Part shown: in pieces, positions 24,296 through 64,000 of the stretch
Position numbering within the stretch: the first letter of the stretch is position 1
Layout: every line of letters begins with the position of its first letter
NCBI RefSeq assembly: GCF_003075525.1
Contig: NZ_QDDR01000018.1
Location: 1-64,000 of the forward strand
Direction of reading: 5' to 3'
Source of the DNA: Pararhodobacter aggregans
GTDB lineage: Bacteria; Pseudomonadota; Alphaproteobacteria; Rhodobacterales; Rhodobacteraceae
Length of the DNA stretch: 64,000 nucleotides
The notes under the pieces: model-generated
The model's database searches: none
Told to the model about the DNA's origin: nothing
The model's input: the letters and a program-made list of their open reading frames with translations, nothing else
Position numbers and translations under genes: made by a program

Positions 24296-24350
24296 TGCTT
24301 GGGTCCTTCTGTTCCGCAACCGCCCGCCGGAAGGGGCGGCTGCAAGCCTG

Positions 24351-48385: not shown

Positions 48386-48430
48386 TCCGGTCACTTTGAC
48401 GCAAATCGGCGCGGTCGGCGCGGTGCCCGC

Positions 48431-48445
48431 GGGACAGAATGTCCC
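48431..48445. promoter_or_regulatory. Operator copy 1 upstream of the OFA transporter, GGGACAGAATGTCCC
   Basis: A perfect inverted repeat (6-bp arms, GAA spacer). It shares a 13-bp core, GGACAGAATGTCC, with the copy at 48474. Located 46 bp after the kinase stop and about 200 bp before the transporter start. Confidence 0.7.
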
Positions 48446-48473
48446 AAACGGGGCGGGCCGGGGCATGCGCAGG

Positions 48474-48488
48474 CGGACAGAATGTCCG
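48474..48488. promoter_or_regulatory. Operator copy 2 upstream of the OFA transporter, CGGACAGAATGTCCG
   Basis: A perfect inverted repeat with the same 13-bp core as copy 1. Centres are 43 bp apart, about four helical turns, so two dimers of the NtrC-type regulator could bind the same face. Confidence 0.7.
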
Positions 48489-48491
48489 ATA

Positions 48492-48521
48492 TTGCCAATC
48501 TAAGTCATTGTTATTTATGTA
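48492..48521 (+). promoter_or_regulatory. Possible promoter with an ATCTAAGT element
   Basis: TTGCCA (48492-48497) and TATGTA (48516-48521) are 18 bp apart, with ATCTAAGT (48498-48505) in the spacer. That octamer equals the right half of the phthalate operator. The -10 box is weak and the left half of the operator is absent. Confidence 0.4.
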
Positions 48522-48561
48522 GAAAATTCTTGACAGGAAAGGTGCGGACGGTGCCATTCGT

Positions 48562-48590
48562 CTGTGGCATGCCGTCGCATGCTGCCACAG
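48562..48590. repeat. Inverted repeat in the leader of the OFA transporter gene
   Basis: CTGTGGCA (48562-48569) and TGCCACAG (48583-48590) are perfect 8-bp arms with 13 bp between them; the loop contains GCATGC. It could be an operator or an mRNA hairpin 52 bp before the ATG. Confidence 0.5.
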
Positions 48591-48642
48591 GGACCCGCGG
48601 TAGGAGGCCGCGACCCCGGGGAACCGACAGGGAGGATCGAGA

Positions 48643-50364
48643 ATGAGCAAAGCGTCAGGGGGCGCGCTGGGGTTCTTGCACAAGAGCCACATCGTCGCCG
48701 AACCGGGATACAACCGCTGGCGGGTGCCGCCCGCCTCCATCGCCATCCATCTGTGCATCGGATCGGTCTATGCCTGGTCGGTGTTCAACCCGCCGCTGAC
48801 GCGGGAACTGGGCGTCGTCGCCTCCTCGGCCGAGGACTGGAGCCTCAGCTCGGTCGTCTGGATCTTCTCGGTCGCCATTGTCTTCCTGGGCCTCGCCGCC
48901 GCCTTCGCCGGCAAGTGGCTGGAAGAGGTCGGTCCCCGCATGGTCGGTGTCGTCGCCGCGATCCTCTGGGGCGGCGGGTTCATCATCGGCTCGTTCGGGA
49001 TCTCGACCCATCAACTCTGGCTGCTCTACCTCGGCTACGGGGTGCTGGGCGGCTGCGGGCTTGGGCTGGGCTATGTCTCGCCGGTCTCCACGCTGATCCG
49101 CTGGTTCCCCGACCGCCGCGGCATGGCCACCGGCATGGCCATCATGGGCTTCGGCGGCGGCGCGATGATCGCCACGCCGGTCAAGGGCTGGCTGCTGGAG
49201 ATGTTCCAGACGGCGCCCGATTTCCTCGGCGCGCAGGATGCCGTCGCCACCATCGTCGAGAACGGCCGCGTCTTCGCTGAAACCGCCGCCGGCCGGGTCG
49301 AGGTGGTGATCGCCACCGCCGCCCAGGCCGCGCCCTTCGGCGGCGAGGCGGGCGTCTATGTCATCGGTACCGGCAACACCGGCGCTGCGGGCACCTTCAT
49401 GACGCTGGGCGTGGTCTATTTCATCGTCATGATCCTGGCCGCCTTCCAGTACCGCGTGCCCGCGCCCAACTGGAAACCGGCGGGATGGGAGCCCAAGCCC
49501 GTCGCCTCGGGTATGGTCTCGCAGAACCACGTCCATATCGACCAGGCGCTGAAGACGCCGCAATTCTGGCAGCTGTGGATCATGCTGTGCTTCAACGTGA
49601 CCGCCGGGATCGGCGTGATCGGCGTGGCCAAGACCATGATGTCCGAGATCTTCGGTTCGGTGATGCCGCTGATCGTGACCGCCGCCTTTGCCTCGACCTA
49701 TGTGTTCATGATCTCGGTCTTCAACATGGTGGGGCGGTTCTTCTGGGCCTCGACCTCGGATTACATCGGGCGCAAGGCCACCTATACCTGTTTCTTCGCG
49801 CTGGGGACGCTGCTTTATCTCTCGATCCCCTATTTCGCGAGCGCGGTGGCCACCAACCCGGCGATCATCTATCTGGTCGGCTTCTACATCGCGACGATGA
49901 TTATCTTCTCGATGTACGGCGGCGGCTTCGCCACGATCCCGGCCTATCTGGCCGATATGTTCGGCACCATGCATGTGGGCGGCATCCACGGGCGCCTGCT
50001 GACCGCCTGGTCGCTGGCCGGGGTGCTGGGGCCGCTGGCCATCACCTCGCTGCGCGAGATGTCCGTCAACAGCGCGATCCGCGACCTCGCCTCGCGCGTC
50101 GATGCGGCGTCCTTTGCCGAGCGGTTCGGCGCGCCGCTGGCCCAGCTCGACCAGCTGGTCGCGGCGCGGACGGTGACCATCGCCCGGCTGATGGAGATTG
50201 CGCCCGCAGGGACCATCGACCCGACGCCCTCGCTCTACAACACAACGATGTATTGCATGGCGGCGCTGCTGGTGGTGGGCTTCATCGCCAACATGATGAT
50301 GCGGCCGGTGAAGGAGCACCATCACCACGACGCGCCTGCGGCCGCCCGAGTTCCGGGCGAATAA
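48643..50364 (+). CDS. OFA-family MFS transporter (oxalate/formate antiporter-like)
   Basis: A 573-aa, 12-TM MFS protein of the OFA group. TM1 has IHLCIGSVYAWSVFNPPL, typical of OFA proteins; the loop SPVSTLIRWFPDRRGMATGM is also characteristic. There is an insert near residues 190-240 and a His-rich C-terminus. Exchanges or imports small carboxylates across the inner membrane; the substrate is unknown. A GGGAGG site precedes the start at 48643. Tandem operators and the upstream two-component pair suggest induction by its substrate. Confidence 0.87.
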   Translation: MSKASGGALGFLHKSHIVAEPGYNRWRVPPASIAIHLCIGSVYAWSVFNPPLTRELGVVASSAEDWSLSSVVWIFSVAIVFLGLAAAFAGKWLEEVGPRMVGVVAAILWGGGFIIGSFGISTHQLWLLYLGYGVLGGCGLGLGYVSPVSTLIRWFPDRRGMATGMAIMGFGGGAMIATPVKGWLLEMFQTAPDFLGAQDAVATIVENGRVFAETAAGRVEVVIATAAQAAPFGGEAGVYVIGTGNTGAAGTFMTLGVVYFIVMILAAFQYRVPAPNWKPAGWEPKPVASGMVSQNHVHIDQALKTPQFWQLWIMLCFNVTAGIGVIGVAKTMMSEIFGSVMPLIVTAAFASTYVFMISVFNMVGRFFWASTSDYIGRKATYTCFFALGTLLYLSIPYFASAVATNPAIIYLVGFYIATMIIFSMYGGGFATIPAYLADMFGTMHVGGIHGRLLTAWSLAGVLGPLAITSLREMSVNSAIRDLASRVDAASFAERFGAPLAQLDQLVAARTVTIARLMEIAPAGTIDPTPSLYNTTMYCMAALLVVGFIANMMMRPVKEHHHHDAPAAARVPGE

Positions 50365-50396
50365 CCCGGGCGGACAGTCCCAACCGCTGTCCGGCG

Positions 50397-50420
50397 AACG
50401 GCCCCCTCACGGGGGCCGTT
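50397..50420. terminator. Bidirectional terminator hairpin
   Basis: A perfect 10-bp stem, AACGGCCCCC / GGGGGCCGTT, with a TCAC loop, followed by TTCTGCTTT. It lies between the convergent OFA transporter and class V aminotransferase genes. Confidence 0.88.
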
Positions 50421-50427
50421 TCTGCTT

Positions 50428-51843
50428 TCAGCCGACCCGGGCGAGGGGGGCGGGGGCCAGGAACCGCGCAGGGTCCCGGGCGATCTGTGCGATGGCGTCG
50501 AGGATCAGATCGGCCTTCCCGTCGGTCATCAGCGCGCTCAGGTTGAAGCGGGTGAAACCGGGCCGGGCGGTGTCGTCGCCCGCCTGGATGCGCCGGCGGA
50601 TCTGGTCGCTTTCCGCCTGATCGATGCCGAACAGCCGGTGCCCATAGGGGCCGGCGCAGGCACAACCGCTGCGGGTCTGGATGCCGAAATGATCGGACAG
50701 CGCCCGTGTGATCTGCTGATGCCGGTCGCGCCCCTCCAGCCAGAACGAGAAGAAGGGCAGGGCGGGCGCCGAGGTGCCCTTGCCCGCGTAATGGAAGCCG
50801 GGCAGCGCGTCGAAGGCTGCCACCGCCCGGGCCCGCAGCGCGGCGTGGCGGGCGTCCAGCCAGTCCTGGCCCATCGCCTCCTTCACCGTGACGGCGAGCG
50901 CCGCGCGGATGTCGCCCAGGACGTTGGGCGTGCCCGCTTCCTCGCGCGTCTCCAGCGAGGCGCTGTAATCGTGTCCCCATTCCGAGACATAGGTTACCGT
51001 GCCGCCGCCCGGCCAGACCGGGGTATCGCGCCGCGCGGCGTCTTTGCTGAGGATCAGCACGCCCGAGGCGCCCGGTCCGCCGATGAACTTGTGGGGTGAA
51101 AAGACGATGGCGTCCTTCTCGTGGTCGGTGCCCGCGTCCATCGACATGGCGATATAGGGGGCGCCGCCCGCGTAGTCCCAGACCGCCAGCGCCCCGTGGC
51201 GCTTCAGGATGCGCGTCACGGCCACCGTATCGGTCAGGATGCCGCTGACGTTCGACGCGGCGGAAAAGGCGCCGATCACTGGCCGGCCTTTGGCCGCTTT
51301 GAGTTCCGATTCCAGTGTGCTCAGGCACGGGCCGCCGGTCGCCGGATCCTCGGGGATCTCGCGCAGCTCGGCGCCGGATTCGCGCCAGGGCAGGATGTTG
51401 GAATGATGCTCGTAAGGCCCGATCAGCACCAGCGGCCGCCGCCCCGCCGCCACGTCCTGCGGTACGCCCAGCAACGCGACCAGCCGGTTCAGCCCCGCCG
51501 TGGCGCCCGAGCCCGCGAAGATCGTGGCGAAGCGCGGGTCCGCGCCGCAATGCCGGGCGATCACCGCTCGCGCCTCGCGCCGCAGACGCGTGACGAAGGC
51601 GCCGCAATGCGAGCCCTCGGTATGGCTGTTGGCATAGAAGGGCAGCACTTCTTCCAGCACTGTCGTTTCCACCTGACGCAGCGCCCGGCCCGAGGCGACG
51701 TAATCGGCGTAGATCAGCGGGCGCGGCCCGAAAGGCCCGTCGATGACCTGCCCGTCGCCGATCAGCCCCTGTCGCAGACGCTGGAGGCAATCGGGGCCGT
51801 CGAGCTGGTTGCGGAAACGGTCGAAGAAAGGGGTCTCGGGCAT
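50428..51843 (-). CDS. Class V aminotransferase-fold PLP enzyme
   Basis: A 471-aa PLP enzyme of the class V / cysteine desulfurase-like group. It has an extended N-terminus (LIYADYVASGRALRQVE), FAGSGATAGLNRLVALLG for phosphate binding, VWDYAGGAPYIAM for the PLP Asp, and the Schiff-base lysine in IVFSPHKFIGGPGASG. The C-terminal RSGCACAGPYGHRLFG has cysteines near the desulfurase loop position, so a selenocysteine lyase- or desulfurase-like reaction is possible. It is divergent from the lrp gene, which probably controls it. Confidence 0.83.
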   Translation of the reverse strand: MPETPFFDRFRNQLDGPDCLQRLRQGLIGDGQVIDGPFGPRPLIYADYVASGRALRQVETTVLEEVLPFYANSHTEGSHCGAFVTRLRREARAVIARHCGADPRFATIFAGSGATAGLNRLVALLGVPQDVAAGRRPLVLIGPYEHHSNILPWRESGAELREIPEDPATGGPCLSTLESELKAAKGRPVIGAFSAASNVSGILTDTVAVTRILKRHGALAVWDYAGGAPYIAMSMDAGTDHEKDAIVFSPHKFIGGPGASGVLILSKDAARRDTPVWPGGGTVTYVSEWGHDYSASLETREEAGTPNVLGDIRAALAVTVKEAMGQDWLDARHAALRARAVAAFDALPGFHYAGKGTSAPALPFFSFWLEGRDRHQQITRALSDHFGIQTRSGCACAGPYGHRLFGIDQAESDQIRRRIQAGDDTARPGFTRFNLSALMTDGKADLILDAIAQIARDPARFLAPAPLARVG

Positions 51844-51932
51844 GGGGGCTCCTGTCGTTGGGCAAAGGCTACCCAAGCTGGACACAAAAAATTTCATCGA
51901 ACTTTGTCCGGCCTTCGGCTATTTTCGATCAC

Positions 51933-52403
51933 ATGAACGATGAAGCCCCAAAATTGGACGAGATTGATCGCCGTATCCTGCGCGCGCTGCAACGGGACGC
52001 ATCCCAGCCGCAGCGTGCGCTGGCCGAGGCCGTGGGCCTCAGCCAGAACGCCTGCTGGCGGCGGCTCAACCGCTTGCAGGCCGAGGGGGTCATCAAGGGT
52101 CAGACAATCCGGCTGGATGCGGCCGAGCTGGGCCTGCCCTTGACCGTCTTCATGATGATCCGTACCCGCAACCACTCCCGCCCGTGGCTGGAAACCTTCC
52201 GGCGCGAGGTTCTGGCGATCCCGCAGGTGATCGACATGTACCGGATCGCCGGGGAATACGATTACATCCTCAAGGTCGTGGCCGCCGACATGAACGGGTT
52301 CGATCAGGTCTATCAGCGGCTGATCGCCCGGCTGGAGCTGGAGAATGTGACGTCGCTTATCACCATGGAATCGATTGCCGCCGGGCGCGACATTCCGATC
52401 TGA
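51933..52403 (+). CDS. Lrp/AsnC-family transcriptional regulator
   Basis: A 156-aa Lrp protein. HTH: LDEIDRRILRALQRDASQ followed by LAEAVGLSQNACWRRLNRLQ; C-terminal RAM effector domain (VIDMYRIAGEYDYILKVVAAD). It starts at 51933. The 89-bp gap to the divergent aminotransferase gene has an imperfect inverted element, GGACACAAA (51880-51888) and TTTGTCC (51903-51909), and a run of A/T; either could be its site. Probably senses an amino acid handled by the neighbouring enzyme. Confidence 0.87.
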   Translation: MNDEAPKLDEIDRRILRALQRDASQPQRALAEAVGLSQNACWRRLNRLQAEGVIKGQTIRLDAAELGLPLTVFMMIRTRNHSRPWLETFRREVLAIPQVIDMYRIAGEYDYILKVVAADMNGFDQVYQRLIARLELENVTSLITMESIAAGRDIPI

Positions 52404-52409
52404 CGGGGA

Positions 52410-53012
52410 TCAAAGGCCGAGGTCGCGCGCCATGGCGTGCGAGGCTCTGGCGTGGTCCGGGTCCGTCAGATCGACCGAAAGCCGGGGCCCGGTGCCGCCC
52501 TGCCTGTGCGGCGCGGCGATGGCCCCGGTGTCGCGGACAATCCCGTCAACCGGGCGGGTGAAACCCCAGCCCGGCACGCCCGGCCCGGCGATGCCGAGGC
52601 GCGAGGCGTTGTCCCGCCGGACCCGGCCAAAGGCGCCGCCGTCCTCCGGCCCCGGGTGCAGCCCGATCCCGCGCAGGAAGGCGGGTTCGGCCAGCCGTGT
52701 CTCCGGGCCGAACCCGCGCTCGCCCTCGGGCCAGCGCCAGTCGGCCACGCCGCTCAGCCGCATGCCGTTGCCGTCCAGCACCGCGAGGGCGAGGGACCAC
52801 CGCAGCAATCCCGCCGTTGCCGCCCTCAGCCGCATCGGGACCGGGCCTTGCCCGTCATCGCCCGGCCAATGCAGCACCGGCGCATGGGTAATCACCACCA
52901 GCGCCGCGCCGAAGCCCTGCCGCGACAGCATCTGCCGCAGGCTCTCGCCCAGCGGGAAATAGCCGTCGATGATATCCTCGAAGAAATGCCCGGCGACGAG
53001 AAGATCGGCCAT
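52410..53012 (-). CDS. Protein of unknown function downstream of the GS-like ligase
   Basis: A 200-aa protein with no cysteine and no family I recognise. The N-terminus is hydrophobic-patterned (LLVAGHFFEDIIDGYFPL; FGAALVVITHAPVLHW) and the rest is glycine- and arginine-rich, with two Trp-containing repeats (GVADWRWPEGERGFG). It starts 7 nt after the GS-like gene stop on the same strand, so it belongs to that operon. Coding is supported by position and codon use. A hydrolase or partner for the gamma-glutamyl product is a guess. Confidence 0.6.
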   Translation of the reverse strand: MADLLVAGHFFEDIIDGYFPLGESLRQMLSRQGFGAALVVITHAPVLHWPGDDGQGPVPMRLRAATAGLLRWSLALAVLDGNGMRLSGVADWRWPEGERGFGPETRLAEPAFLRGIGLHPGPEDGGAFGRVRRDNASRLGIAGPGVPGWGFTRPVDGIVRDTGAIAAPHRQGGTGPRLSVDLTDPDHARASHAMARDLGL

Positions 53013-53019
53013 GCGCGCC

Positions 53020-54468
53020 TCAGAACAGGGTGAAATACTCGGCCTGTTCCCATTCCGAGACGGTCGCCAGATACCGGCCCCATTCCGCCCGCTTCAGATG
53101 CGCGAGGTAGCGGACGAAATCCGGCCCCAGCGCCTGCGCATAGAGGGGGGAGGCCTCGAACGCCTGAATGGCCGCGTCCAGTGTGGCGGGCAGGCTCGCC
53201 TGATCCTCGGCATAGGGCGTCAGCGTCGGCGGCGGGGGCGTGGCGCCACGGGTCAGCCCATCCAGCCCGGACAGGATCTGCCCGGCCAGCGCGTAATAGG
53301 GATTGGCGGCGGTGTCGGCGACGCGGTTCTCGATCCGGGATGCCGGATCACCGGCATAGAGCAGCGCACGAAGCATGGCGCCGCGGTTGTCGGTGCCCCA
53401 TTGCACGCGGTTCGGGGCCAGCTGGAAGGCACTGAACCGCTTGTAGCCGTTGACCGTGGGATTGGTCAGCAGGCAGGTGGCGGGTGCGTGCTCCAGAAGC
53501 CCGGCGATCCAGGCGCCCGCCTCGGCCGTCGGTTCGCCATCGACCGAAGGGGTGAAGACGTTGCGCCCGGTCTGCCGCGAGACCAGCGATTGATGGATGT
53601 GCCAGCCATTGGCCACCGCATTCGCCACCCGGGGCTTCGGCATGAAACTCGCGTGCAGGCCCTGCCGCTGGCAGATGTCCTTGACCATCATGCGGAACAG
53701 GACGAAGCGGTCGGCCTGGGTCAGCGGGTCCGAAGCGTCGAAGGTGAATTCGAACTGCGACGGCCCCATCTCGATCTCCATCGAGCGGGGGGCGAGGCCC
53801 ATCGCCTCGGCCGCGCGGCGGATCTCGTCGAGCAGGGGCTCGACAGCGCCATAGCGGGTTTCGGTGAGGAAGGCCCAGCCCTGCGTGGTGTTGCGGGTGG
53901 TGATCGCGGCGGGGGGCATGGTGGCCTGATCGTGTGAAAGGCCGTCATCCTCGATGGCGAAGACCTGAAACTCCACCTCCAGCCCCATCACCGCGTCATG
54001 GCCAGTGCGCGCGAGCGCCTCCATCGCCCGGCGCAGCACGCCGCGCGGCGAGACCGAGACGTGCTGGCCCGAGCGATAGGCCAGATCGCAAAGGATCAGC
54101 GCGGAATGCGGCGACCAGGGCAGGGGGGTGAAGGTGGCGACATCCGGCACCAGCAGCAGATCGCCCGCCCCCGCCAGCGACACGCCGTCCAGCGTCAGCC
54201 CGTCCTTCCAGACGTCGAACACCGTCCGATGCGCCGTGTCCTTGAGGATCAGCGTCGACGGCACCGACAGCCCCGAGGCCAGTGCCGAGCCCAGTGTCCG
54301 CGCCGCGATGGCCTTGCCGCGCAGGATGCCGTGCTGGTCGGCAAACAGCAGGCGCACCGTCTCAAACCCCTCGGCCATCACCCGCGCGACCAGTTCGACC
54401 CCGGCCTGTGCCTGATCCTCGCTCAGCAAGCCGCGCTCGAAGAGTGCTCCCTTGATCGCCCCGTCCAT
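53020..54468 (-). CDS. Glutamine-synthetase-like gamma-glutamyl ligase
   Basis: A 482-aa GS-family enzyme. N-terminal beta-grasp part (VRLLFADQHGILRGKAIAA), metal-ligand Glu pair in MGLEVEFQVF, ATP region SMEIEMGPSQFEFTFDASD, the conserved HIHQSL segment, and FSAFQLAPNRVQWGTDNRGA. Members outside true GlnA join glutamate to amines, as in aniline or isopropylamine pathways. Adenylylation Tyr sites are not evident. It starts 2 nt after the Rieske-less oxygenase stop, an order like that of gamma-glutamylanilide systems. Likely role: activate an amine before oxygenation. Confidence 0.84.
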   Translation of the reverse strand: MDGAIKGALFERGLLSEDQAQAGVELVARVMAEGFETVRLLFADQHGILRGKAIAARTLGSALASGLSVPSTLILKDTAHRTVFDVWKDGLTLDGVSLAGAGDLLLVPDVATFTPLPWSPHSALILCDLAYRSGQHVSVSPRGVLRRAMEALARTGHDAVMGLEVEFQVFAIEDDGLSHDQATMPPAAITTRNTTQGWAFLTETRYGAVEPLLDEIRRAAEAMGLAPRSMEIEMGPSQFEFTFDASDPLTQADRFVLFRMMVKDICQRQGLHASFMPKPRVANAVANGWHIHQSLVSRQTGRNVFTPSVDGEPTAEAGAWIAGLLEHAPATCLLTNPTVNGYKRFSAFQLAPNRVQWGTDNRGAMLRALLYAGDPASRIENRVADTAANPYYALAGQILSGLDGLTRGATPPPPTLTPYAEDQASLPATLDAAIQAFEASPLYAQALGPDFVRYLAHLKRAEWGRYLATVSEWEQAEYFTLF

Positions 54469-54470
54469 GC

Positions 54471-55691
54471 TCACACCGTCGCGTCCCAGGGACAGGCCGC
54501 CCGCCGCGCCAGATCGGCCGCCCGGCTCACCGCCTGCCAGTCGGCAGTTTCGGCAATCGCGTCGTTGGACAAGGGCCCGAGGATCCCTGCGGCGCCCGCG
54601 CCATGCATCGGCAGCGCCGCCCGGTCGCCCTGTTCCAGCGCGTCCATCATCCGCCGCAGCATCCGCCGGTAGCGGATGATCGCCACGTCCGAGCGGCCGA
54701 GGTGTTCCTGCGTGCGGTCCTGGATCCGGCCCATCCCCTCGACCGCCCATTGGTCGTGGACGTTGATGTCCAGCCCCATGCCGGTATAGGTCAGCGCCGC
54801 CTGCTCGGCCGGGTCGTAATGGTAATCGTTGCGGCGGTTCTTCAGCGGTGCGTAATCGGGCAGGCGGTGTTCCTTCAACCGCTGGGCGCGCATCAAGTCC
54901 TTGTTCACCGGCTTGTCGAAGCTGGTGAAGACGGTGACCCAATAGCAGGTCTGATCGTCGACCGGGACGTGCCATTGGGTGATGGTCATCTCGCGCGACA
55001 TGGGGATGCAGATCGCCTCGGGGAAGATCTGGTTGGTGACGCGGACATGGGTATGGCCGTTCTCCATATGGCGCAGCGCGGTGATCTTCAGCCCGTAGTC
55101 GGTTTCGTCCACCTTGATCTCGGGGCGCGGATAGTCGCGCAGCAGCTTGGTCATTGGGATCTCGGTCGCGCCGGCCTTGTCGCGGAACTGCTTGCCATAG
55201 CTGTCGGCCGGATCCTCGTCCTCCAGAAAGCGGTGCAGGAACGAGGCATGGGCCGGGTCGATGCCGATCTCCAAAGCCTGCAGCCAGTTGCACTCCCACA
55301 GGCCCTTGAAGGCGAAGACATGGGTGTCGGGCGCGCGGAAGCAGTCGAAGGCGGGGAAGGGCGGCGGGGCGCCATCGCCGAGATAGGCGAAGACCAGCCC
55401 GGCGCGGGTCTCGGTCGGATAGACCGGGCCGGTGGGGTCGATCTGGATCGCGTCGGAGGCCGGGTAATGCGTCGGCGCCTCCTCCGGCGAGGCGACGCGG
55501 GTCGCCAGTTCCAGCCCCTGCGCGCCCTGCTGCAGCACCAGCCGCTCGCCCAGCAGGTTCACCGGCACCAGCGGGCCATGCGCCAATTCATCGACCAGAG
55601 CGGCGGGTTGCCAGTATTGCCGCAGCACGGCGCCCGCCGGAGTGCCGGGGGCGATGCGGGTGATGCGGTCATTGAGGTGCTGGCTGATCAT
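54471..55691 (-). CDS. Rieske-type oxygenase catalytic protein lacking the Rieske cluster
   Basis: A 406-aa protein of the phthalate-dioxygenase family. The N-terminal family pattern (GTPAGAVLRQYWQPAAL; VPVNLLGERLVL) is kept, but the C-x-H and C-x2-H cluster motifs are absent; only two Cys occur in the first 135 residues and neither fits. The iron site is intact: D145, H148, H153 in IGIDPAHASFLH, and the C-terminal QDRTQEHLGRSD is normal. The cluster is probably supplied by the separate Rieske protein encoded just upstream (55688-56089, ATGA overlap). A precedent is NdmC of caffeine demethylation, which relies on a Rieske domain in NdmD. Confidence 0.85.
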   Translation of the reverse strand: MISQHLNDRITRIAPGTPAGAVLRQYWQPAALVDELAHGPLVPVNLLGERLVLQQGAQGLELATRVASPEEAPTHYPASDAIQIDPTGPVYPTETRAGLVFAYLGDGAPPPFPAFDCFRAPDTHVFAFKGLWECNWLQALEIGIDPAHASFLHRFLEDEDPADSYGKQFRDKAGATEIPMTKLLRDYPRPEIKVDETDYGLKITALRHMENGHTHVRVTNQIFPEAICIPMSREMTITQWHVPVDDQTCYWVTVFTSFDKPVNKDLMRAQRLKEHRLPDYAPLKNRRNDYHYDPAEQAALTYTGMGLDINVHDQWAVEGMGRIQDRTQEHLGRSDVAIIRYRRMLRRMMDALEQGDRAALPMHGAGAAGILGPLSNDAIAETADWQAVSRAADLARRAACPWDATV

Positions 55692-56089
55692 GCTTCTGTC
55701 TCCGCTGCGGCTGCCTGTTCCAGTTCCACCCCGACCTGCGCCCAAATCGCGCCATCCACTTCGCGGACCGGCACCATCGGGATGCGGATCTGCTCGTGCA
55801 TGCGGGACCCCTCGGGTTCCGCTGGTTGTTCGACGCATTGCCCGGTCCGGTTGAAATGCCAGCCGTGGAACGGGCAGCGCAGCCCGTTGTCCTCCAGCCG
55901 ACCATAGCACAGGTCGGCGCCGCGATGCGGGCAATGACGGCCGATCAGGCCCAGCTGCCCCTCGTCGTCGCGAAACAGGACCAGACGCCGGCCGGCCAGC
56001 GTCACCGGGATCAGCGGACGGGGGCGGTTCAGATCGGCCAAGGTGGCGATCTGGACCCAGCCCTTGGCTTGTGGCGTTGCGGCGGTCAT
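55688..56089 (-). CDS. Stand-alone Rieske [2Fe-2S] protein
   Basis: A 133-aa protein consisting of one Rieske domain: C53-P-H55 and C72-P-F-H75, with the typical GLRCPFHGWHFNRTGQC. Its sequence resembles the N-terminal domain of phthalate-family oxygenases more than that of ferredoxins such as MocE. It is first gene in the operon with the cluster-less oxygenase and the GS-like ligase. The start at 56089 is preceded by GGGAGC. I infer that the two proteins act together as one split oxygenase; a free electron carrier is the alternative. Confidence 0.87.
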   Translation of the reverse strand: MTAATPQAKGWVQIATLADLNRPRPLIPVTLAGRRLVLFRDDEGQLGLIGRHCPHRGADLCYGRLEDNGLRCPFHGWHFNRTGQCVEQPAEPEGSRMHEQIRIPMVPVREVDGAIWAQVGVELEQAAAAETEA

Positions 56090-56113
56090 CGGCTCGGGCT
56101 CCCCTTGCGAATG

Positions 56114-56128
56114 GTGCGATAATCGCAC
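56114..56128. promoter_or_regulatory. IclR operator candidate, GTGCGATAATCGCAC
   Basis: A perfect 15-bp palindrome (7-bp arms, one central A) in the 86-bp gap between the divergent split-oxygenase operon and iclR. IclR proteins bind similar short palindromes. Confidence 0.75.
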
Positions 56129-56175
56129 ATAGTGGGCGATATGTGAACTTTGCCAGAGCGCGGGAGACCTGTCAA

Positions 56176-56937
56176 ATGAGTGATCGCGATTTCGCCCAGA
56201 CCCTCGCCAAGGGGCTGGAGGTTCTGGCTTGTTTCGAGAGCGGCGCGCTTTGCCTGACCCTGCCCGAGATCACCCGCCGTTCGGGTCTGGACCGGGCGGT
56301 GGTGCGGCGGCTCTGCCTGACGCTGGTACGCTGCGGCTATCTGGAAGAGGGCGAGGGCGGTCTGCGCCTCGCGCCCCGGGTGCTGACGCTGGCGGGTGGG
56401 TTTCTGGGCGGCTTGCAGGTCGGCCGGGTGGTGCAGCCCGTCCTGCGCCACGCGGCCGAGGAGTTGGACATGGAGGTCGCGCTCGCCACCCGCGATCGGC
56501 TGCACGCGGTCTATGTCGATCGCGCCGCCCCGGCCTCGGCCCGGGTGACGCTGGGTTTCGGGATCGGCAGCGCGCTGCCGCTTCTGCACACGGCGGTCGG
56601 GCGGATGCTGCTGGCGCGCTCGGGCCCGGAGGTTCTGGAACAGGCCCTCGCCGCCCGGCCCGCGACCCGCTACACCGAGGCGACCGAGCTTGACCCCGCG
56701 CGGCTGCGCGCCGCCGTCGAGGCCGCGCGCGAACAGGGCTTTGCCTTTGCCCGCGACGAGTTCGAACTGGGCGCGGCCGGGGTGGCGGTGCCGTTGGGCG
56801 GGCTGGGGCAGGTGCCCTTCGTGCTGGCGACGACGGCCTCGGTCAACGCCTTCGACGAGCCGGGGAGGCTGGAGCGGGTGCTGGATGTGCTGCGGCGGAG
56901 CGCGCTGGCCATCGGCCGGATCGGCGCCCCGCGCTGA
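56176..56937 (+). CDS. IclR-family transcriptional regulator
   Basis: A 253-aa IclR protein. HTH at about 8-65 (LTLPEITRRSGLDRAVVRRL) and C-terminal GAF-like effector domain with EELDMEVALATRDRLHAVYVD, LPLLHTAVGRMLLA and FARDEFELGAAGVAVPLG. The start at 56176 is preceded by GAGACC. It is divergent from the Rieske/GS operon and shares a perfect palindrome with it, so it is the likely regulator. It converges with iorB. Confidence 0.88.
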   Translation: MSDRDFAQTLAKGLEVLACFESGALCLTLPEITRRSGLDRAVVRRLCLTLVRCGYLEEGEGGLRLAPRVLTLAGGFLGGLQVGRVVQPVLRHAAEELDMEVALATRDRLHAVYVDRAAPASARVTLGFGIGSALPLLHTAVGRMLLARSGPEVLEQALAARPATRYTEATELDPARLRAAVEAAREQGFAFARDEFELGAAGVAVPLGGLGQVPFVLATTASVNAFDEPGRLERVLDVLRRSALAIGRIGAPR

Positions 56938-56943
56938 GCGGCC

Positions 56944-58467
56944 TTATGCCAGAAAACTGCGGATCGTTTGCAGCGTGCCGTCCAGCGCCACGCCTTCCTC
57001 GTCCTGCAGGGCCGAGGTGATCAGGCGCCGCGCCCAATCGGCGGCATCGTCCCGCCCCTCGACCATGGCAATGCCCTCCATCACCCGGTCGAACTTGCCC
57101 AGACCCCGCGCATGGGTGTCGGAATAGCCCTTCACCAGACGCCGGGCTTGCAGCGTCGCGGTGGCCAGCGCCAGATCCCGGGGCGCGCGGTCCAGCGCGG
57201 TGGCGAACCAGCGGTCCAGATGCGCCGTCTCCTCGGCATGGCGCAGGCTGCGCGGGCGCCAGCTGCGCATCGAGGCGAGCATGTGCAATTGCAGGAAGGG
57301 CAGCAGCCGGTCGGTTCTGAGCCTGCGCCCCTTGTTCACCCGACGGTCGATGAAACCCAGCAGCCGGGGCCGGTCCATGATCGCCTGACCCAGCGCGCGC
57401 GGCAGCAGCGAAACCACTTCCTCGGCCCGGGGATGGGTGAATTCGGTCAGCTGCATGACCTCGGCCCCGCCCATCTCGGCCCGGATCCGGTCCAGACGTT
57501 CGGGCCGGGTCTTGGCATCGGCGACGCGGATCACGTCATCATAGGTCATGGCATTGGCGAGGTATTTGGCCGCCGCGATGGTGAAGGCATTGTCCGTGCC
57601 GTGATCGGTGCGGGCGGCGGTTTCCAGCCGGTCCAGATAGGACGCGCCATAGGCAAGATCCTGAAAATCCACCACCTTGCGCAGGCCGGCCAGCGCCATC
57701 GGCCGGACAGCGGCGGGCAGGGTCGAAACACGGTCAGTCAGGGCCTGCCAGCGCTTGGTCAGTTTCTCGGGGCCTCTCGCGCTGCCCGGGGCGCGGGGCA
57801 GGGGGGCGACGGGGGCCGGGACATTGCCGGCCAGCGCCGCCTCGCGCCCCGCCGCGAAGGCGCGGAGCGAAGGCTCGACCCCCTTGCCGCTGGACCGGAT
57901 CGCCGCCTCGAACGCCTCGACCGGGAAGGGCAGGGCGCCCGATCCCGCCAGCGCGCCGAACAGGCTGGCCGAGATGACCGAGCCCGCCTTCAGCGCCGCC
58001 GCCTCGAAATCCGCCAGCACCAGCCCGCGCGCGGCCACTTCCGCCGCGGCCCGAACCTCGTCGGCATTGGCGATGCCGTCGCCCGGCACCATCTTCTCGC
58101 TCACCGCCAGCGCCCGGTGGGTCGAGGCGATCAGCGTTGTCCGGTCGGGCGTGACGAAGCCGCGCAGGATCGCCCGCCCGGCTTCCATCATCTCGGCCGC
58201 GATCATCACGTCCACGTCGCCCGCCGCGGGGGCGAGCGAGAAGACCGGCGCGACGGGCCCGGCTGGCGCCATTTCCAGATAATAGATCGTGGCGCCCGTG
58301 CGCTGCGCCACACCCGCGACCGAGGTCGCCTGCACCGCATAGCCCTGCGCACGCGCGAGGGTCTCGATCCAGCCGCCCAGCACGCCCCCGCCCTGACCGC
58401 CGACCGCCAGGATCGCCAGCTTGATTACATTACCCGCGTCGGCGGGTGGGGGGAAAGTGACGCTCAT
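56944..58467 (-). CDS. iorB: Indolepyruvate ferredoxin oxidoreductase, beta subunit
   Basis: A 507-aa protein. Residues 15-215 are the gamma-type domain of 2-oxoacid:acceptor oxidoreductases (LAILAVGGQGGGVLGGWIE; TSVAGVAQRTGATIYYLEM). The remaining ~300 residues form the extra C-terminal domain found in long bacterial IorB proteins. With IorA it decarboxylates arylpyruvates to aryl-acetyl-CoA. It overlaps iorA by ATGA and is the last gene of a five-gene operon. Confidence 0.87.
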   Translation of the reverse strand: MSVTFPPPADAGNVIKLAILAVGGQGGGVLGGWIETLARAQGYAVQATSVAGVAQRTGATIYYLEMAPAGPVAPVFSLAPAAGDVDVMIAAEMMEAGRAILRGFVTPDRTTLIASTHRALAVSEKMVPGDGIANADEVRAAAEVAARGLVLADFEAAALKAGSVISASLFGALAGSGALPFPVEAFEAAIRSSGKGVEPSLRAFAAGREAALAGNVPAPVAPLPRAPGSARGPEKLTKRWQALTDRVSTLPAAVRPMALAGLRKVVDFQDLAYGASYLDRLETAARTDHGTDNAFTIAAAKYLANAMTYDDVIRVADAKTRPERLDRIRAEMGGAEVMQLTEFTHPRAEEVVSLLPRALGQAIMDRPRLLGFIDRRVNKGRRLRTDRLLPFLQLHMLASMRSWRPRSLRHAEETAHLDRWFATALDRAPRDLALATATLQARRLVKGYSDTHARGLGKFDRVMEGIAMVEGRDDAADWARRLITSALQDEEGVALDGTLQTIRSFLA

Positions 58468-60626
58468 GCCGCGCTCTCCTCGAAGCTCAGGCGGCGGGAC
58501 TGGCGACGCTTCGCCAGCCAGCCGATCAGCCCCTGCCGCCAGCCGTTCAGACGGCGTTCCAGGGCCGAGGGGTTGTGGATCACCCGCGCCTCGTAGAACG
58601 AGGGGCAGAGGACAGCGGCCTCGGCCACCTCGCCGCAATTGCCGCAGCCGACGCAGGAGGTGTCGATCGAGGCCACCGGATCGTCGCGCAGCGGATCGTC
58701 CAGTTTCTTCAGCGACAGCGACGGGCAGCCCGACAGCCGGATGCAGGCATGGTCGCCGGTGCAGACGGCCTCATCGACGCCGAAGCGCGGCGCCTCGACC
58801 CGGCGCCCCTCGCGGATCGCGGCGCTGCGCAGGGGCTTCTCGCGCCGCTGTTTGTTCAACATGCATTCGGACGAGGCGACGATGACCTTGGGCCCGGGCG
58901 TGTCGGTGGTCAGCGCCTCGCGCAGGATGTCGCGCATGCCCGCCACGTCATAGGTGCGGTCCACCTGTTTCACCCAGTCGATGCCGATGCCGCGCAGCGC
59001 CTTGGAGATCGGATTGTTGGTGGCCTTGGTCGGGTTCTTGGCGCGCGACGACATCACGTCCTGCCCGCCGGTCGCGGCTGAATAGTAATTGTCGACGATG
59101 ACCGCCACGCCGTCCGACTTGTTGAACGCCATGTTCCCGAACGAGGACGACAGGCCATTGTGCCAGAACCCCCCGTCGCCGATCACGGCGATCGAGCGTT
59201 TCTCGGCGCCCCCTGCCTTGCCACCGTCAAAGGCCGCGTTCGACGCGGGGCCGAGGCCGTAGCCCATCGTCGCGCCGCCGATGTTGAAAGGCGGCAGCGA
59301 GGCAAACAGGTGGCAACCGATATCGGCGCTGATCTGGTGTTCGCCCAGTTCCTTCTGCACCAGTTTCATCGCGGCGAAGATCGGCCGTTCCGGGCAGCCG
59401 GTGCAGAATCCCGGCGGGCGGATCGGCACGGTCTTCGACAGGTCCGGGATCGCCGGCGCCTCGGTATTGGGCGCCAGCACCTGCGCGGGCAGCAGATTGG
59501 GCGCGTGCTGGCGCAGGAAGGTTTCCAGCGAATCCTTCATCACCTGCCCGGTGTATTCCCCGGCCATCGGGAAAATGTCCTTGCCATGCAGCCGGGTCGA
59601 AGACCCCGAACGCAGCATCATCGTGGCAAAGGCCTGTTCCAGAAACTCGGGCTGGCCTTCCTCGACCACCAGCACCGCTTCCTTGCCTGCGCAGAAAGCG
59701 CTGAATTCATCGGGCAGCAGCGGATAGGTCACGTTCAGGCAATAGATCGGCACCTGCGTGTTGCCATAAAGGTCCGCCAGACCCAGCCGTTGCAGGGCGC
59801 GGATCACGCCGTTGTACATGCCGCCCTGACAGACGATGCCGACCGGCGCCGCCTCTGGCCCGAACCGCTCGTTCAGCTGGTGGTCGCGGATGTAGCGCTC
59901 GGCGGCGGGCCAGCGGTTGTTGATCTTGTCGTGTTCCTGCGCGTAGCTCATCGGCGGCAGCACGATGCGCGAGACATTGCGCTGGGGCTTGGCCAGCGCC
60001 TCGCGCACGCTGAGCGGCGGGCGCTGGTTGTCGCGGGTCTGGAACTGGCCGGTGACGTGGCAGGCGCGGATGCGGACCATCAGCATGACAGGCGTGTTGG
60101 ACGCTTCCGACAGCGCGAAGCCGTCGCCCACCGCCTTGACGATCGAGGGCAGGTTCGGCCGCGGGTCCAGCAGCCAGAACTGCGACTTCATCGCGAAGGC
60201 GTGGCTGCGCTCCTGCATGATGCTGGAGCCTTCGCCGTAATCCTCGCCGACGATGATGAGCGCCCCGCCGGTCACGCCCGAGGAGGCGAGGTTGGCCAGC
60301 GCGTCCGAGGCGACGTTGACGCCGACCGGCCCCTTGAAGGTCACGGCGCCCCGGATCGGGTAATGCACCGAGGCCGCCAGCATCGCCGCGGCGGCGGCTT
60401 CCGAGGCGTTGGCCTCGAACCTTACGTCCAGCTCTTTCAGCAGGTCCTCGGCATCGGCCAGCACGTCCATCAGGTGGCTGATCGGCGCGCCCTGATAGCC
60501 GCCGACATAGCCGACCCCGTTCTCCAGAAGCGCCTTGGTGATCGCCAGGATCCCCTCGCCGGTGAAGGTCTCGCCCGCGCCCTTGCGCAGATCGGCCACC
60601 TCGGCCTTGAATGAGCGTTCGGCCAT
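58464..60626 (-). CDS. iorA: Indolepyruvate ferredoxin oxidoreductase, alpha subunit
   Basis: A 720-aa enzyme with the IorA order: pyrimidine-binding half (VGYVGGYQGAPISHLMD), central transketolase-like parts, the TPP motif GDGGFWHNGLSSSFGN...VDNYYSA, and a C-terminal ferredoxin-like section with CTGDHACIRLSGC and CVGCGNCGEVAEAAVLC for two [4Fe-4S] clusters. It oxidatively decarboxylates an aryl-2-oxo acid with CoA and ferredoxin. The start at 60626 follows GAGGACC. The natural substrate here may not be indolepyruvate. Confidence 0.9.
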   Translation of the reverse strand: MAERSFKAEVADLRKGAGETFTGEGILAITKALLENGVGYVGGYQGAPISHLMDVLADAEDLLKELDVRFEANASEAAAAAMLAASVHYPIRGAVTFKGPVGVNVASDALANLASSGVTGGALIIVGEDYGEGSSIMQERSHAFAMKSQFWLLDPRPNLPSIVKAVGDGFALSEASNTPVMLMVRIRACHVTGQFQTRDNQRPPLSVREALAKPQRNVSRIVLPPMSYAQEHDKINNRWPAAERYIRDHQLNERFGPEAAPVGIVCQGGMYNGVIRALQRLGLADLYGNTQVPIYCLNVTYPLLPDEFSAFCAGKEAVLVVEEGQPEFLEQAFATMMLRSGSSTRLHGKDIFPMAGEYTGQVMKDSLETFLRQHAPNLLPAQVLAPNTEAPAIPDLSKTVPIRPPGFCTGCPERPIFAAMKLVQKELGEHQISADIGCHLFASLPPFNIGGATMGYGLGPASNAAFDGGKAGGAEKRSIAVIGDGGFWHNGLSSSFGNMAFNKSDGVAVIVDNYYSAATGGQDVMSSRAKNPTKATNNPISKALRGIGIDWVKQVDRTYDVAGMRDILREALTTDTPGPKVIVASSECMLNKQRREKPLRSAAIREGRRVEAPRFGVDEAVCTGDHACIRLSGCPSLSLKKLDDPLRDDPVASIDTSCVGCGNCGEVAEAAVLCPSFYEARVIHNPSALERRLNGWRQGLIGWLAKRRQSRRLSFEESAA

Positions 60627-60633
60627 GCGGTCC

Positions 60634-61104
60634 TCAGAATTCGTGTTTGCGGATGTTGCGCAGCATCTTCTGCAAGGTGAGCAGGAAGGCTTGCCGTTCG
60701 TCGTCGGAAATACCGCGGAACATGACCTCCTGCGCGTCGGTCATGTGCGGCCAGAGGCCTTCGAAGACTTCGCGACCGGCGGCGGTGATGAAGATCCGCG
60801 TTGCCCGGCTGTCGTTGGGGTCGGTTTCCCGCCGGACGAGGCCATCGGCCTCCAACTGGTCCAGCGCCCGGCTGAGCGTCGATTGTTCGGTCACGGCATA
60901 GACGGCAAGTTCCCGGATCAGCGGTGCCTGCACCACCGACAGCACCGCAAGCGCCCGCATCTTCGGCGTGGACAGGCCGTTCTTGCCCAGGGCCGCGCGG
61001 ATCTCGGCGTTATAGCGGCCCATGATCCGGTTCATCAGATAGGGCGCGAAACCCTCCAGCCCGGTTTCGCCCAGCCTCGTCCGTCTCTTGCCCTGATCGC
61101 TCAT
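60634..61104 (-). CDS. MarR-family transcriptional regulator
   Basis: A 156-aa MarR protein. HTH and wing: LAVYAVTEQSTLSRALDQLEADGLVRRETDPNDSR is present across residues 68-103, with the conserved D-x-R. It lies inside the operon (ATGA overlap with the FAD enzyme gene) and 7 bp before iorA, so it probably controls its own operon. The promoter gap at 63460-63563 has a palindromic AT-rich site. Confidence 0.87.
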   Translation of the reverse strand: MSDQGKRRTRLGETGLEGFAPYLMNRIMGRYNAEIRAALGKNGLSTPKMRALAVLSVVQAPLIRELAVYAVTEQSTLSRALDQLEADGLVRRETDPNDSRATRIFITAAGREVFEGLWPHMTDAQEVMFRGISDDERQAFLLTLQKMLRNIRKHEF

Positions 61105-62663
61105 GCCCCCAGCCTCTTCGCCGCGTTGAACCCCGATCCGCCGCCGAGGCCCGGCCCCGGATGCGTCGAGGCCCCGATATGGATCAGGCCGCGCACGGGT
61201 CCAACCCCGTTGGTGGAATGGGCGAAGGGGCGCCAGATGAAGAACTGGTCGATGCCGCAATGCCCGCCATAGGGATCGCCGCCGACGAGGTTGATGTTCA
61301 TCGCTTCCAGATCGGCGGGGGAATAGGCCCGGCGCGCCAGCCTGATCCGGTCGAAATCCTTGATGTGGCGGGCGAGGATGCCCTCGATCCGGTCGGCGAA
61401 AGCCTCGCGCGTGGCCTCGTCCCAGCTGCGGCCGGGGATCTGGCCGGCGGCGTCGCCCTTGATGGCGCGGGGCGCGTCGGGGATTTGCAGCCAGAGGATC
61501 GCCTTGCCCTCGGGACAACGGGTCGGGTCCAGCTTGGACGGCTGGCCGACGCAGAGGGTGGGGGTTTCCGGGAAGAGGCCACGCTCCGCCTCGTTGGCGG
61601 ATTTCGACACCGCGTCGATCCCGTCCGACAGGTGGATCAGCGCCACGTCCTCCAGCCCCGGGGTCAGCCATTCCGGCGCCCGGTCCAGCGCGAAATGCAG
61701 CTGGAAATTGCCCCGCCCGTGCCGGAAATCGGGCAGCGCGGCGCGGTCCTGGGTCAGCTCGGCATCGCCCAGAAGCCGGTCGTAAAGCTGCCCCGGCGCG
61801 ACCGAGGCCAGGACCGAGCGCGCGGCGATCGTCTCGCCCGTGGTCAGCATCACCCCGGTGACGCGGCCATCCAGAACCTCGATCCGGGACACATCGGCGC
61901 CGGTGCGCAAGGTTCCGCCATGCGCCTCGATCAGCGATTTGAAGGCGGCGACCGCAGCACCCGAGCCACCCTTGACCACCGGGGCCCCGGCGGCCTCCAG
62001 CGCGAAGGCGATGACCTTGCCCATCTGCGCCGAATAGGCGGATTCGGGCGTCAGGCCGCAATGCAGCACCCACGGCGCCCAAAGCGCCTGAACCAGCGGG
62101 CTGCGATAGCGCGCTTCCAGCCAGCCGCGCGCAGGCGCCAGGGCCTGACCCATCCAGCCGGCAAGACCACGAAGGCCGCGCTTGCGCACCTGCCCGAACA
62201 GCAGTTTCGCCGTGCCCCAGGACCAGAGCGATCCGCCCAGAAGGCCGAACAGGAAGGGCGCATCGGCGGCGATCTGCCCGGTATCGGCGGCATGCTGGTC
62301 ACCGTCGCCCGGGGCCAGTGCGTTGAAGGTCGCGCGGTTCTTGGCCGGGTCCATGGTCAGCACCAGGGCGCTGCCATCGGGCCGCAGCACCGCCGTGGGG
62401 TGCGGGCTGTGGCAATAGTCGAACCCGTGCCTGGCCAGATGCGGCCCCAGCGCCGCCCCGGCGGGCGAGGTCATGAACAAGACCCAGGTGGCGGCCATCA
62501 CGTCATGGTGGAAGCCCGGCAGGGTCGCGGTGTCGGTCAGCAGGCAGCCGCCCAGACGGTCCTCGCGCTCCAGCACCGTGACCTTGTGGCCTTTCAATGC
62601 CAGCATGGCCGCGGCCACGAGCCCGTTGATCCCGGACCCGATGATGACGTGATCGGCCGCCAT
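61101..62663 (-). CDS. Phytoene-desaturase-like FAD oxidoreductase
   Basis: A 520-aa flavoprotein of the CrtI-like / COG1233 group. N-terminal dinucleotide motif VIIGSGINGLVAAAMLALKG and the acidic strand end LEREDRLGGCLLTD; the C-terminal FAD motif is in HIGASTHPGPGLGGGSGFN. There are no other carotenoid genes, so a carotenoid role is unlikely; many such proteins in aromatic operons are oxidases of unknown substrate. It is 4 nt after the cyclase stop. A second, divergent homologue starts at 63564. Confidence 0.85.
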   Translation of the reverse strand: MAADHVIIGSGINGLVAAAMLALKGHKVTVLEREDRLGGCLLTDTATLPGFHHDVMAATWVLFMTSPAGAALGPHLARHGFDYCHSPHPTAVLRPDGSALVLTMDPAKNRATFNALAPGDGDQHAADTGQIAADAPFLFGLLGGSLWSWGTAKLLFGQVRKRGLRGLAGWMGQALAPARGWLEARYRSPLVQALWAPWVLHCGLTPESAYSAQMGKVIAFALEAAGAPVVKGGSGAAVAAFKSLIEAHGGTLRTGADVSRIEVLDGRVTGVMLTTGETIAARSVLASVAPGQLYDRLLGDAELTQDRAALPDFRHGRGNFQLHFALDRAPEWLTPGLEDVALIHLSDGIDAVSKSANEAERGLFPETPTLCVGQPSKLDPTRCPEGKAILWLQIPDAPRAIKGDAAGQIPGRSWDEATREAFADRIEGILARHIKDFDRIRLARRAYSPADLEAMNINLVGGDPYGGHCGIDQFFIWRPFAHSTNGVGPVRGLIHIGASTHPGPGLGGGSGFNAAKRLGA

Positions 62664-62667
62664 GGCC

Positions 62668-63459
62668 TCAGCCCCGCGCGACCAGCGCCAGCGCCCGGAT
62701 CGGCGAGCCGGTGCCCTGGGCGATCTTCAGGGGCGCGGCGATCAGGATCGCGCCCTTGGGCGGCAGCTTGTCCAGATTGGCAAGCGAGGCGAGGCCGAAG
62801 CGGTTGTTCGCGTGCAGGAGGTTATGCGCCGGGAAGGGCGGGTTCATGCCGCCCGCAAGGCCCGCGTCGGTGCCGATGCACTGGCTGCCCCAGCCGACGA
62901 TGCCCTTGCCGATGAGGTGCTGGATCGCCTCGGCGGTCGGCCCGGGGGTGTGCGGCCCGGTCTCGTTGGCGTTGAGAAACAGCGCCTCATCGTGCGCGCG
63001 CTTGTCCCAGTCCGAGCGCAGGACGACCCATTCCCCGGCGTTGATCGCGCCGTGCTGGGCCTCCCAGGCGTCGATATGCTCGACGGTCAGCAGGAAATCC
63101 GGATCGGCGGCGCATTCGGCGCTGAAATCCAGCACGTTGACCGGGGCCACGACGCGCTTGATGTCCAGCGTGTCGGTATAACCGTCCGAGTAATCCTTGC
63201 CGGTGATCCAGTGATGCGGCGCGTCGAAATGCGTGCCCGAGTGTTCGCCCAGTTCCAGCCAGTTCCAGGCCCAGAACGGCCCGTCCTGATCGTATTCGCT
63301 GATGCGGTGGATCTTGATGGGCGGGGTGTCCTTGGCCAGTTCCGGCGGCAGTTTCAGCAGCGGCGTGTCGGGGCCCAGCGTCCCCGTGCAATCCACCACC
63401 TCGATGCCGCCCGAGGCCAGAAGGCCGGCAAGCTGCGTCAGAACATTGGATGCATTCAT
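62668..63459 (-). CDS. Cyclase-family metal hydrolase (kynurenine-formamidase-like)
   Basis: A 263-aa enzyme of the cyclase / arylformamidase family. The conserved metal motif is LELGEHSGTHFDAPHH (H-x-G-T-H-x-D-x-P-x-H). ECIGTD-like SQCIGTDAG follows the family pattern. Related enzymes hydrolyse N-formyl amides or cyclic amides. The start at 63459 was chosen because GGGAGA lies 7 nt upstream; an ATG 18 bp earlier lacks one. First gene of the operon ending in iorB. Confidence 0.85.
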   Translation of the reverse strand: MNASNVLTQLAGLLASGGIEVVDCTGTLGPDTPLLKLPPELAKDTPPIKIHRISEYDQDGPFWAWNWLELGEHSGTHFDAPHHWITGKDYSDGYTDTLDIKRVVAPVNVLDFSAECAADPDFLLTVEHIDAWEAQHGAINAGEWVVLRSDWDKRAHDEALFLNANETGPHTPGPTAEAIQHLIGKGIVGWGSQCIGTDAGLAGGMNPPFPAHNLLHANNRFGLASLANLDKLPPKGAILIAAPLKIAQGTGSPIRALALVARG

Positions 63460-63520
63460 GGCGATTCTCCCTGTCACGGGGCCTGTGTCGGCCCTTCACA
63501 AAAACAGACTAGACAGATTT

Positions 63521-63538
63521 ATATGCATTTGCAAATAT
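63521..63538. promoter_or_regulatory. AT-rich palindromic site in the divergent promoter region
   Basis: ATATGCATTTGCAAATAT contains the perfect 10-bp palindrome ATTTGCAAAT (63527-63536) abutting ATGCAT (63523-63528). It stands out in a GC-rich window and sits between divergent start codons. It is the likely binding site of the MarR protein encoded at 60634. Confidence 0.6.
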
Positions 63539-63563
63539 CATTTCGACTCGTGGGGGCTTGGTC

Positions 63564-64000
63564 GTGGATGATCTCGATGCGGTGCTGATCGGCGCCGGAC
63601 ATAATTCTCTGGCCTGTGCTTTGACCCTTGCCGCAAAGGGCTGGCGGGTGGGTGTCTACGAACGCGCGCCGGTGCCGGGCGGGGCGGTGAAAAGCGGCGA
63701 GTATACCCTGCCGGGCTTTCGTCACGACTGGGCGGCGATGAACCTCTCGCTCTTCGCGGGAAGCCAGTTTCATAAGCAATTCGCTCAAGAACTGGCCGGG
63801 CACGGGCTGGCCTTCGTGCCGGTCAACCGCCCCTTTGCTTCGGCTTTCCCGGACGCGACCTGGCTGGGGATCGAGATGGACCAGGCCGCCAACCGTAGCC
63901 GCATCGCAGCATTGTCCGAGGCGGATGCGAAGGTCTGGGATTCGCTCAGCGAAACCTTCCCGACCCGGGCCGAGGATGTCTTCGCCTTGCTCGGCGCCAA
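63564..64000 (+). CDS. Second phytoene-desaturase-like FAD oxidoreductase (partial)
   Basis: An open frame from a GTG at 63564 to the window edge gives 145 residues and no stop. It starts D-D-L-D-A-V-L-I-G-A-G-H-N-S-L-A, a dinucleotide-binding motif, then YERAPVPGGAVKS, typical of CrtI-like enzymes. GGGGG lies 7 nt before the GTG. It is a homologue of the enzyme at 61101, encoded divergently, and is cut by the window end. Confidence 0.8.
   Translation, partial: MDDLDAVLIGAGHNSLACALTLAAKGWRVGVYERAPVPGGAVKSGEYTLPGFRHDWAAMNLSLFAGSQFHKQFAQELAGHGLAFVPVNRPFASAFPDATWLGIEMDQAANRSRIAALSEADAKVWDSLSETFPTRAEDVFALLGA

Follow-up and report, generated by a model that had tools for sequence, protein, structure and literature searches.

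The window, by which we mean the whole 64,000-nucleotide stretch of Pararhodobacter aggregans DNA that was analysed, appears to encode a Rieske oxygenase whose cluster resides on a dedicated stand-alone protein. Sequence comparison suggests that this arrangement derives from an intact oxygenase gene and that it has a third conserved partner. The features concerned are the following.

54471..55691, minus strand: large, a cluster-less phthalate-type oxygenase alpha subunit of 406 aa
55688..56089, minus strand: small, a stand-alone Rieske protein of 133 aa with C53/H55/C72/H75
53020..54468, minus strand: a glutamine-synthetase-like protein, between large and orf200
52410..53012, minus strand: orf200, a 200-aa protein and the third one conserved in the split module, without Pfam match
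56176..56937, plus strand: a divergent IclR/PcaR-type regulator adjoining the module (scanned from 56173)

The minus-strand genes are transcribed in the order small, large, glutamine-synthetase-like gene and orf200, and an ATGA overlap joins small to large. The coordinates, lengths, ATGA overlap and C53/H55 and C72/H75 motifs are all as given in the initial annotation. The glutamine-synthetase-like gene adjoins most oxygenase genes, split and intact alike. The window had no Rfam match at the gathering score. Beyond the module, at 56944-63477, lie indolepyruvate ferredoxin oxidoreductase beta and alpha-like, MarR, CrtO-like FAD protein and cyclase genes; the MarR and oxidoreductase genes adjoin the module in Pararhodobacter marinus (L064) too. 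Another phthalate-type oxygenase relative is present in the window at 23015-24319 on the minus strand, as a 434-aa frame with 32% identity over query residues 86-359.

The Pfam search of large (E ≤ 1) returned LigXa_C at 99.1 bits (cut-off 27) and two weaker oxygenase families, and no Rieske domain. CxH and CxxH motifs were absent from all 22 large proteins, namely that of the window, those of 19 genome loci and those of two plasmids, which bears out the earlier description of an oxygenase without C-x-H and C-x2-H. One of these motif comparisons took in 10 of the 20 intact family loci fetched.

Large aligns with isophthalate dioxygenase (IPDO) of Comamonas testosteroni KF1 (9ina) at E 1.3e-39. 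According to the available part of the structural report, IPDO has cluster ligands C69, H71, C88 and H91 and iron ligands H177, H182 and D337, and D174 bridges the cluster and the iron, whose separation is 12.5 Å across the subunit boundary and 45 Å inside a single chain (PMC12445078; the 9ina chain numbering is 23 higher than the numbering in that paper). By an alignment counted by hand, D145, H148, H153 and D313 of large correspond to D174, H177, H182 and D337. From this alignment, D145 is the predicted electron bridge and H148, H153 and D313 are the predicted iron ligands. The initial annotation had assigned the iron site to D145, H148 and H153. The two histidines stand, whereas D145 would be the bridge by homology, with D313 as the third ligand. 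The accessible portion of a review likewise describes the conserved aspartate as a bridge linked to the cluster histidine in known enzymes (PMC12445004). At the level of sequence, these four residues are kept in 22/22 split, 61/61 intact and 2/2 outgroup rows.

The AlphaFold2 model of large has a mean pLDDT of 84 and is poorly predicted near 141-180 and 291-310. Its best structural match was isophthalate dioxygenase 9ioy (Z 35.9, 3.2 Å over 368 residues); phthalate dioxygenase (7fjl) matched at Z 35.4. The model has strands at 27-32, 42-46, 49-56, 59-65, 90-96 and 99-103, and a loop at 66-89 where the cluster-binding tip would be. We read the strands from 27-32 to 99-103 as the remaining Rieske base, noting that the alignment behind the model included 23 intact rows and may favour an orderly base. 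The earlier picture of large as Rieske-less was right about the cluster motifs, which are gone, but not about the whole domain, since base strands persist in the model.

Small carries a Rieske domain only (Pfam, 71 bits; cut-off 20.3), and C53/H55/C72/H75 are kept in 22/22 small rows. In a PDB sequence search its best matches were oxygenase alpha-subunit Rieske domains (3.1e-28); the best ferredoxin match, a methanesulfonate monooxygenase ferredoxin, came at 3.1e-7. Small as an imported ferredoxin is not supported by these matches. Judged by dN/dS, both proteins are under purifying selection. Two pairwise comparisons gave 0.13 and 0.18 for small, 0.07 and 0.09 for the whole of large, and 0.06 and 0.08 for its residues 93-406.

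Both proteins have their counterparts within one intact protein. In all 20 intact family loci read, large is 63-69% identical to the intact protein (in two pieces for L024), and small is 61-74% identical to the intact Rieske domain. The catalytic part of intact orthologues is 61-80% identical in the family survey. Along large, the identity between split and intact is 70% at 1-32, 49% at 33-66, 9% at 67-88, 61% at 89-105 and 71% at 106-406. The N-terminal arm and the Rieske base have thus been retained in large, and a shorter, dissimilar stretch (residues ~67-88) occupies the place of the cluster-binding tip. The tip of small (46-95) is 85.6% identical to intact proteins, compared with 88.8% within the intact group, whereas its base is 45.6% identical, compared with 73.8%. 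By this comparison, small duplicates the entire Rieske domain, so that the module has two sets of base strands but a single tip. The most economical history is that part of the gene was duplicated and one of the copies then lost its tip, which points to fission of the gene after the partial duplication. The alignment A4 contained 9 of 11 rows, two being without the N-terminal anchor, and A5 contained 42 of the best 80 related loci plus the window (19/19 split and 23/61 intact).

In quick trees without bootstrap, all 22 split rows formed one clade in the catalytic domain (SH-aLRT 97) and all 22 small rows formed one clade in the Rieske domain (SH-aLRT 98). The catalytic tree groups the split clade with seven intact rows (96). 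Nesting of the split clade within the intact clade was starred in this quick tree but was not secured by the AU test, in which all intact rows as one clade were not rejected (p 0.284). Nested or not, the ancestor was intact, because the outgroup rows are intact and large keeps a remnant of the Rieske domain. The Rieske tree, built on 109 columns, had no resolved nearest intact relative of small.

The same pair was found elsewhere in at least 19 genome loci and on two plasmids, those of Palleronia sp. LCG004 and Pseudooceanicola algae. A survey of the family to which the window belongs covered 394 genomes and gave a relative at E ≤ 1e-60 in 46 (one match each, at most four candidates per genome being scored). 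Thirty family loci were fetched and read, and 10 of them had the split pair and 20 an intact gene encoding both parts. Of the 36 family genomes outside the split group, 20 were read; the remaining 16 were counted as intact only on the range of the match and the length of the frame. The 20 include L024 (G220:C321:2727-3677), where an in-frame TAG interrupts a gene of the intact type in a genome that is 75% complete. The best 80 related loci of the species-genome collection comprised 19 split and 61 intact loci. Small lies directly upstream of large in all 19 of these split loci; the two genes share the ATGA overlap in 11 of them, and 8-66 bases separate them in the other 8. Since the two collections overlap (L065 = G208, L067 = G056, L073 = G139), their counts are not additive; for many genomes, several of the surveys scored no more than the first 4 or 8 candidates and may miss further copies. 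Carriers in culture include Roseobacter sp. GAI101, Alloyangia pacifica DSM 26894 and Thalassovita gelatinovora CECT 4357. One split locus (L072) is in a metagenome bin labelled Granulosicoccaceae, by horizontal transfer or by mis-binning.

A companion of the pair that is new here, orf200, is present in every split locus examined. Neighbourhood comparison found it in 12/12 split and 0/11 intact stretches. It is present in 19/19 split and 0/61 intact loci of the best 80, within the flanks available, some of which are short. In the family survey, orf200 was found in 10 of 394 genomes, exactly those whose loci had been read as split, and in a class sample in 1 of 385 genomes, the source genome (best eight candidates per genome scored). 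Because the split type is one clade, this co-occurrence represents one origin that has been faithfully kept. The pairwise distances of small, large and orf200 correlate across 20 loci (r 0.64-0.83), and joint inheritance alone would give the same. In one comparison orf200 had a dN/dS of 0.41 (0.34 in the first 120 residues) and evolves faster than its partners. It has 18 invariant positions among 20 rows.

The orf200 proteins form a conserved family without Pfam match; among the 20 rows, the sole match at E ≤ 1 was that of one row to a DUF (E 0.26). At the same threshold, no row matched a Pfam GST family, and none matched PF03479 (PPC/DUF296) within HMMER's filters. PF03479 had no match in the source genome, and the best PDB sequence match of orf200 had an E of 0.57. 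The model of orf200 has a mean pLDDT of 72, with blocks from 11 to 120 at 82-95 and a poor tail. It matched 2dt4 (PPC) and six further entries, which we take to be PPC/DUF296, at Z 7.3-7.9 and rmsd 3.5-4.2, and the next match had Z 4.7; by the tool's own caution, a Z under 8 is ambiguous and may reflect merely a common arrangement. The best Foldseek match had an E of 8.9e-4 at TM 0.33. From these weak matches, the core at ~11-120 perhaps has a PPC/DUF296-like fold. Prokaryotic PPC structures suggest trimers, as stated in the portion of the source available (PMC4209074).

We consider it likely that the module is a split-gene orthologue of the intact oxygenase, in which small docks on large and feeds its iron via D145, with orf200 as a dedicated partner. 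In this mechanism, the Rieske-encoding part of an ordinary phthalate-type Rieske oxygenase gene would have been duplicated. One copy would have been kept whole as the separate upstream gene, small, and the copy inside the oxygenase, large, would have lost its cluster-binding tip. Small would bind large so that its tip takes the place of the lost one, with the interface near D145. The route of the electrons would then lead from the cluster of small via D145 to the iron bound by H148, H153 and D313. Since the iron ligands and D145 are kept in 22/22 split rows, small most probably supplies electrons in trans where the original cluster did. Supply of the cluster in trans by a dedicated small protein, as the initial annotation predicted, seems the best reading of the PDB matches, the 19/19 adjacency and the conserved bridge and tip. 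The role of orf200 would most likely be structural, either holding small in place or stabilising large.

Compared with the intact proteins, few positions have changed consistently (at least 85% per group). Within residues 93-406 of large, the sole change of this kind is V to I at position 142, three residues from D145. In small, the single consistent change is G to A at position 90, in the EQPxEP segment. The two changes are possibly coupled. With a complete Rieske domain in small and a base in large, native placement of both would be expected to clash. Two bases for one native place would mean that the base of small docks elsewhere or that the remnant in large has moved, and orf200 may be involved in solving this clash. 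A trimer of cluster-less subunits with three docked Rieske subunits, and a trimeric PPC-fold orf200 as scaffold on the threefold axis, is a tentative picture that we hold to be possible rather than probable.

Several other explanations were weighed against docking of small on large. A sequencing frameshift, an assembly error or a pseudogene has next to no probability. The same architecture occurs in 21 further loci, on chromosomes and on plasmids, whose large proteins are 66-94% identical to that of the window; ligands are kept and dN/dS is low. These independent loci rule out frameshift and assembly error, in favour of which nothing was found, so the frameshift raised in the initial annotation is excluded and the split is confirmed as real. 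Large could also be a pseudo-enzyme or a binding protein without redox chemistry, as the loss of its own cluster would allow. We find this very improbable, because the iron ligands, the bridge, R217 and Q239 are identical in 22/22 split and 61/61 intact rows and because the dN/dS of residues 93-406 is so low in both comparisons. We judge a free shuttle unlikely. Small would here act like the Rieske ferredoxins of three-component dioxygenases, being reduced by a reductase, diffusing and making brief contact with large. It is a complete Rieske domain by itself, its conserved tip would suit transient contacts too, and 8 of the 19 split loci are without the ATGA overlap. However, small matches oxygenase Rieske domains (3.1e-28) far above ferredoxins (3.1e-7), and a dedicated third protein would suggest a stable assembly.

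It is improbable that a general ferredoxin or flavodoxin reduces large directly and that small serves something else. A flavodoxin orthologue is indeed present in 7/10 split genomes, compared with 7/36 intact or presumed intact genomes and 0/20 genomes with neither (split versus intact, Fisher p 0.0046 with relatedness ignored). Against such a general carrier, small adjoins large in 19/19 split genome loci and is under purifying selection, and the bridge aspartate, which links to the cluster histidine in the known enzymes covered by the review portion available, is invariant. The FAD reductase was found in 3/10 split genomes, 7/36 intact or presumed intact genomes (one partial) and 0/20 genomes with neither. 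The flavodoxin and FAD-reductase pair adjoins some split loci (L036, L037, L068-L071), and in the source genome it lies on another contig, ~7 kb from another Rieske-like frame. As a dedicated reductase the pair was rejected for lack of specificity, since both genes occur in intact genomes too. Within 44000-64000 of the window, no relative of the two reductase types found at other loci was found. The ends of G000 contig C12 (L156, L157) share an exact 127-base overlap, so this contig is probably a circular replicon of ~138 kb; one of its ends cuts a FAD reductase gene, and a flavodoxin gene follows at the other.

The substrate is probably that of the intact orthologue, because split and intact proteins do not differ at R217 and Q239. 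These are the positions mapped to the two carboxylate-binding residues of IPDO, R217 to R234 and Q239 to H257. Perhaps one carboxylate is bound as in IPDO. In aromatic-amine pathways with glutamylation, this step precedes ring oxygenation. The glutamine-synthetase-like neighbour of large recalls such pathways with glutamylation, as described in the available part of one report (PMC11335346).

The value of a natural system with a separate cluster lies in what it would allow. The cluster of small, the catalytic site of large and the bridge could each be titrated, labelled and mutated on its own. An ordinary Rieske oxygenase has the cluster on one subunit and the iron supplied by it on the next. 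Any removal of the cluster alters the subunit that carries it, so gating of electron delivery is hard to dissect. The split module and its close intact orthologues form a before-and-after pair for a multi-domain redox enzyme coming apart, and the orf200 family gains a testable role from its link to the split oxygenase.

Isophthalate dioxygenase (9ina/9ioy) and phthalate dioxygenase (7fjl) of Comamonas testosteroni KF1 have their fold in common with large (Z 35.2-35.9), as well as the iron site and the bridge aspartate. Their cluster is in the same polypeptide, whereas in the window pair it is on a second protein. The intact orthologues of Rhodobacterales and other Proteobacteria have neighbours of the same kinds, namely a glutamine-synthetase-like gene and often an IclR-type regulator, and the same mapped catalytic residues. 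However, their Rieske domain is in one gene with the rest, and no adjacent small gene and no orf200 were found at the 61 intact loci of the best 80. Rieske-type ferredoxins (8jng, 2qpz) resemble small in having Rieske ligands on a separate small protein. Unlike them, small groups with oxygenase Rieske domains, and it adjoins an oxygenase without the cluster motif, whereas Rieske-type ferredoxins serve oxygenases that have their own Rieske cluster.

Among split or Rieske-less oxygenases in the literature searched, which mostly excluded subscription papers, only NdmCDE of caffeine degradation in Pseudomonas putida CBB5 was comparable. In the portion of that report available, the catalytic protein is without Rieske cluster, the cluster is on the reductase, and a GST-like third protein is required and is thought to align the others (PMC4408171). 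The comparison with NdmC and NdmD drawn in the initial annotation was apt and extends to the third protein. That annotation had mentioned neither orf200 nor the intact orthologues from which the origin of the split can be read. On the same partial source, both systems have a cluster-less catalytic protein, a cluster on another protein and a third protein. They differ in that the Rieske domain of NdmCDE is fused to the reductase, whereas in the window it stands alone as the 133-aa small. The third proteins may differ too, that of NdmCDE being GST-like and orf200 possibly of another, PPC-like fold (weak match). If the trimer with an orf200 scaffold were true, it would be, with NdmCDE, an independent case of the same solution, and would suggest that a Rieske domain is separable only where a scaffold protein takes over its placement. 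By analogy, the system in the window may have the same three roles as NdmCDE, filled by other parts.
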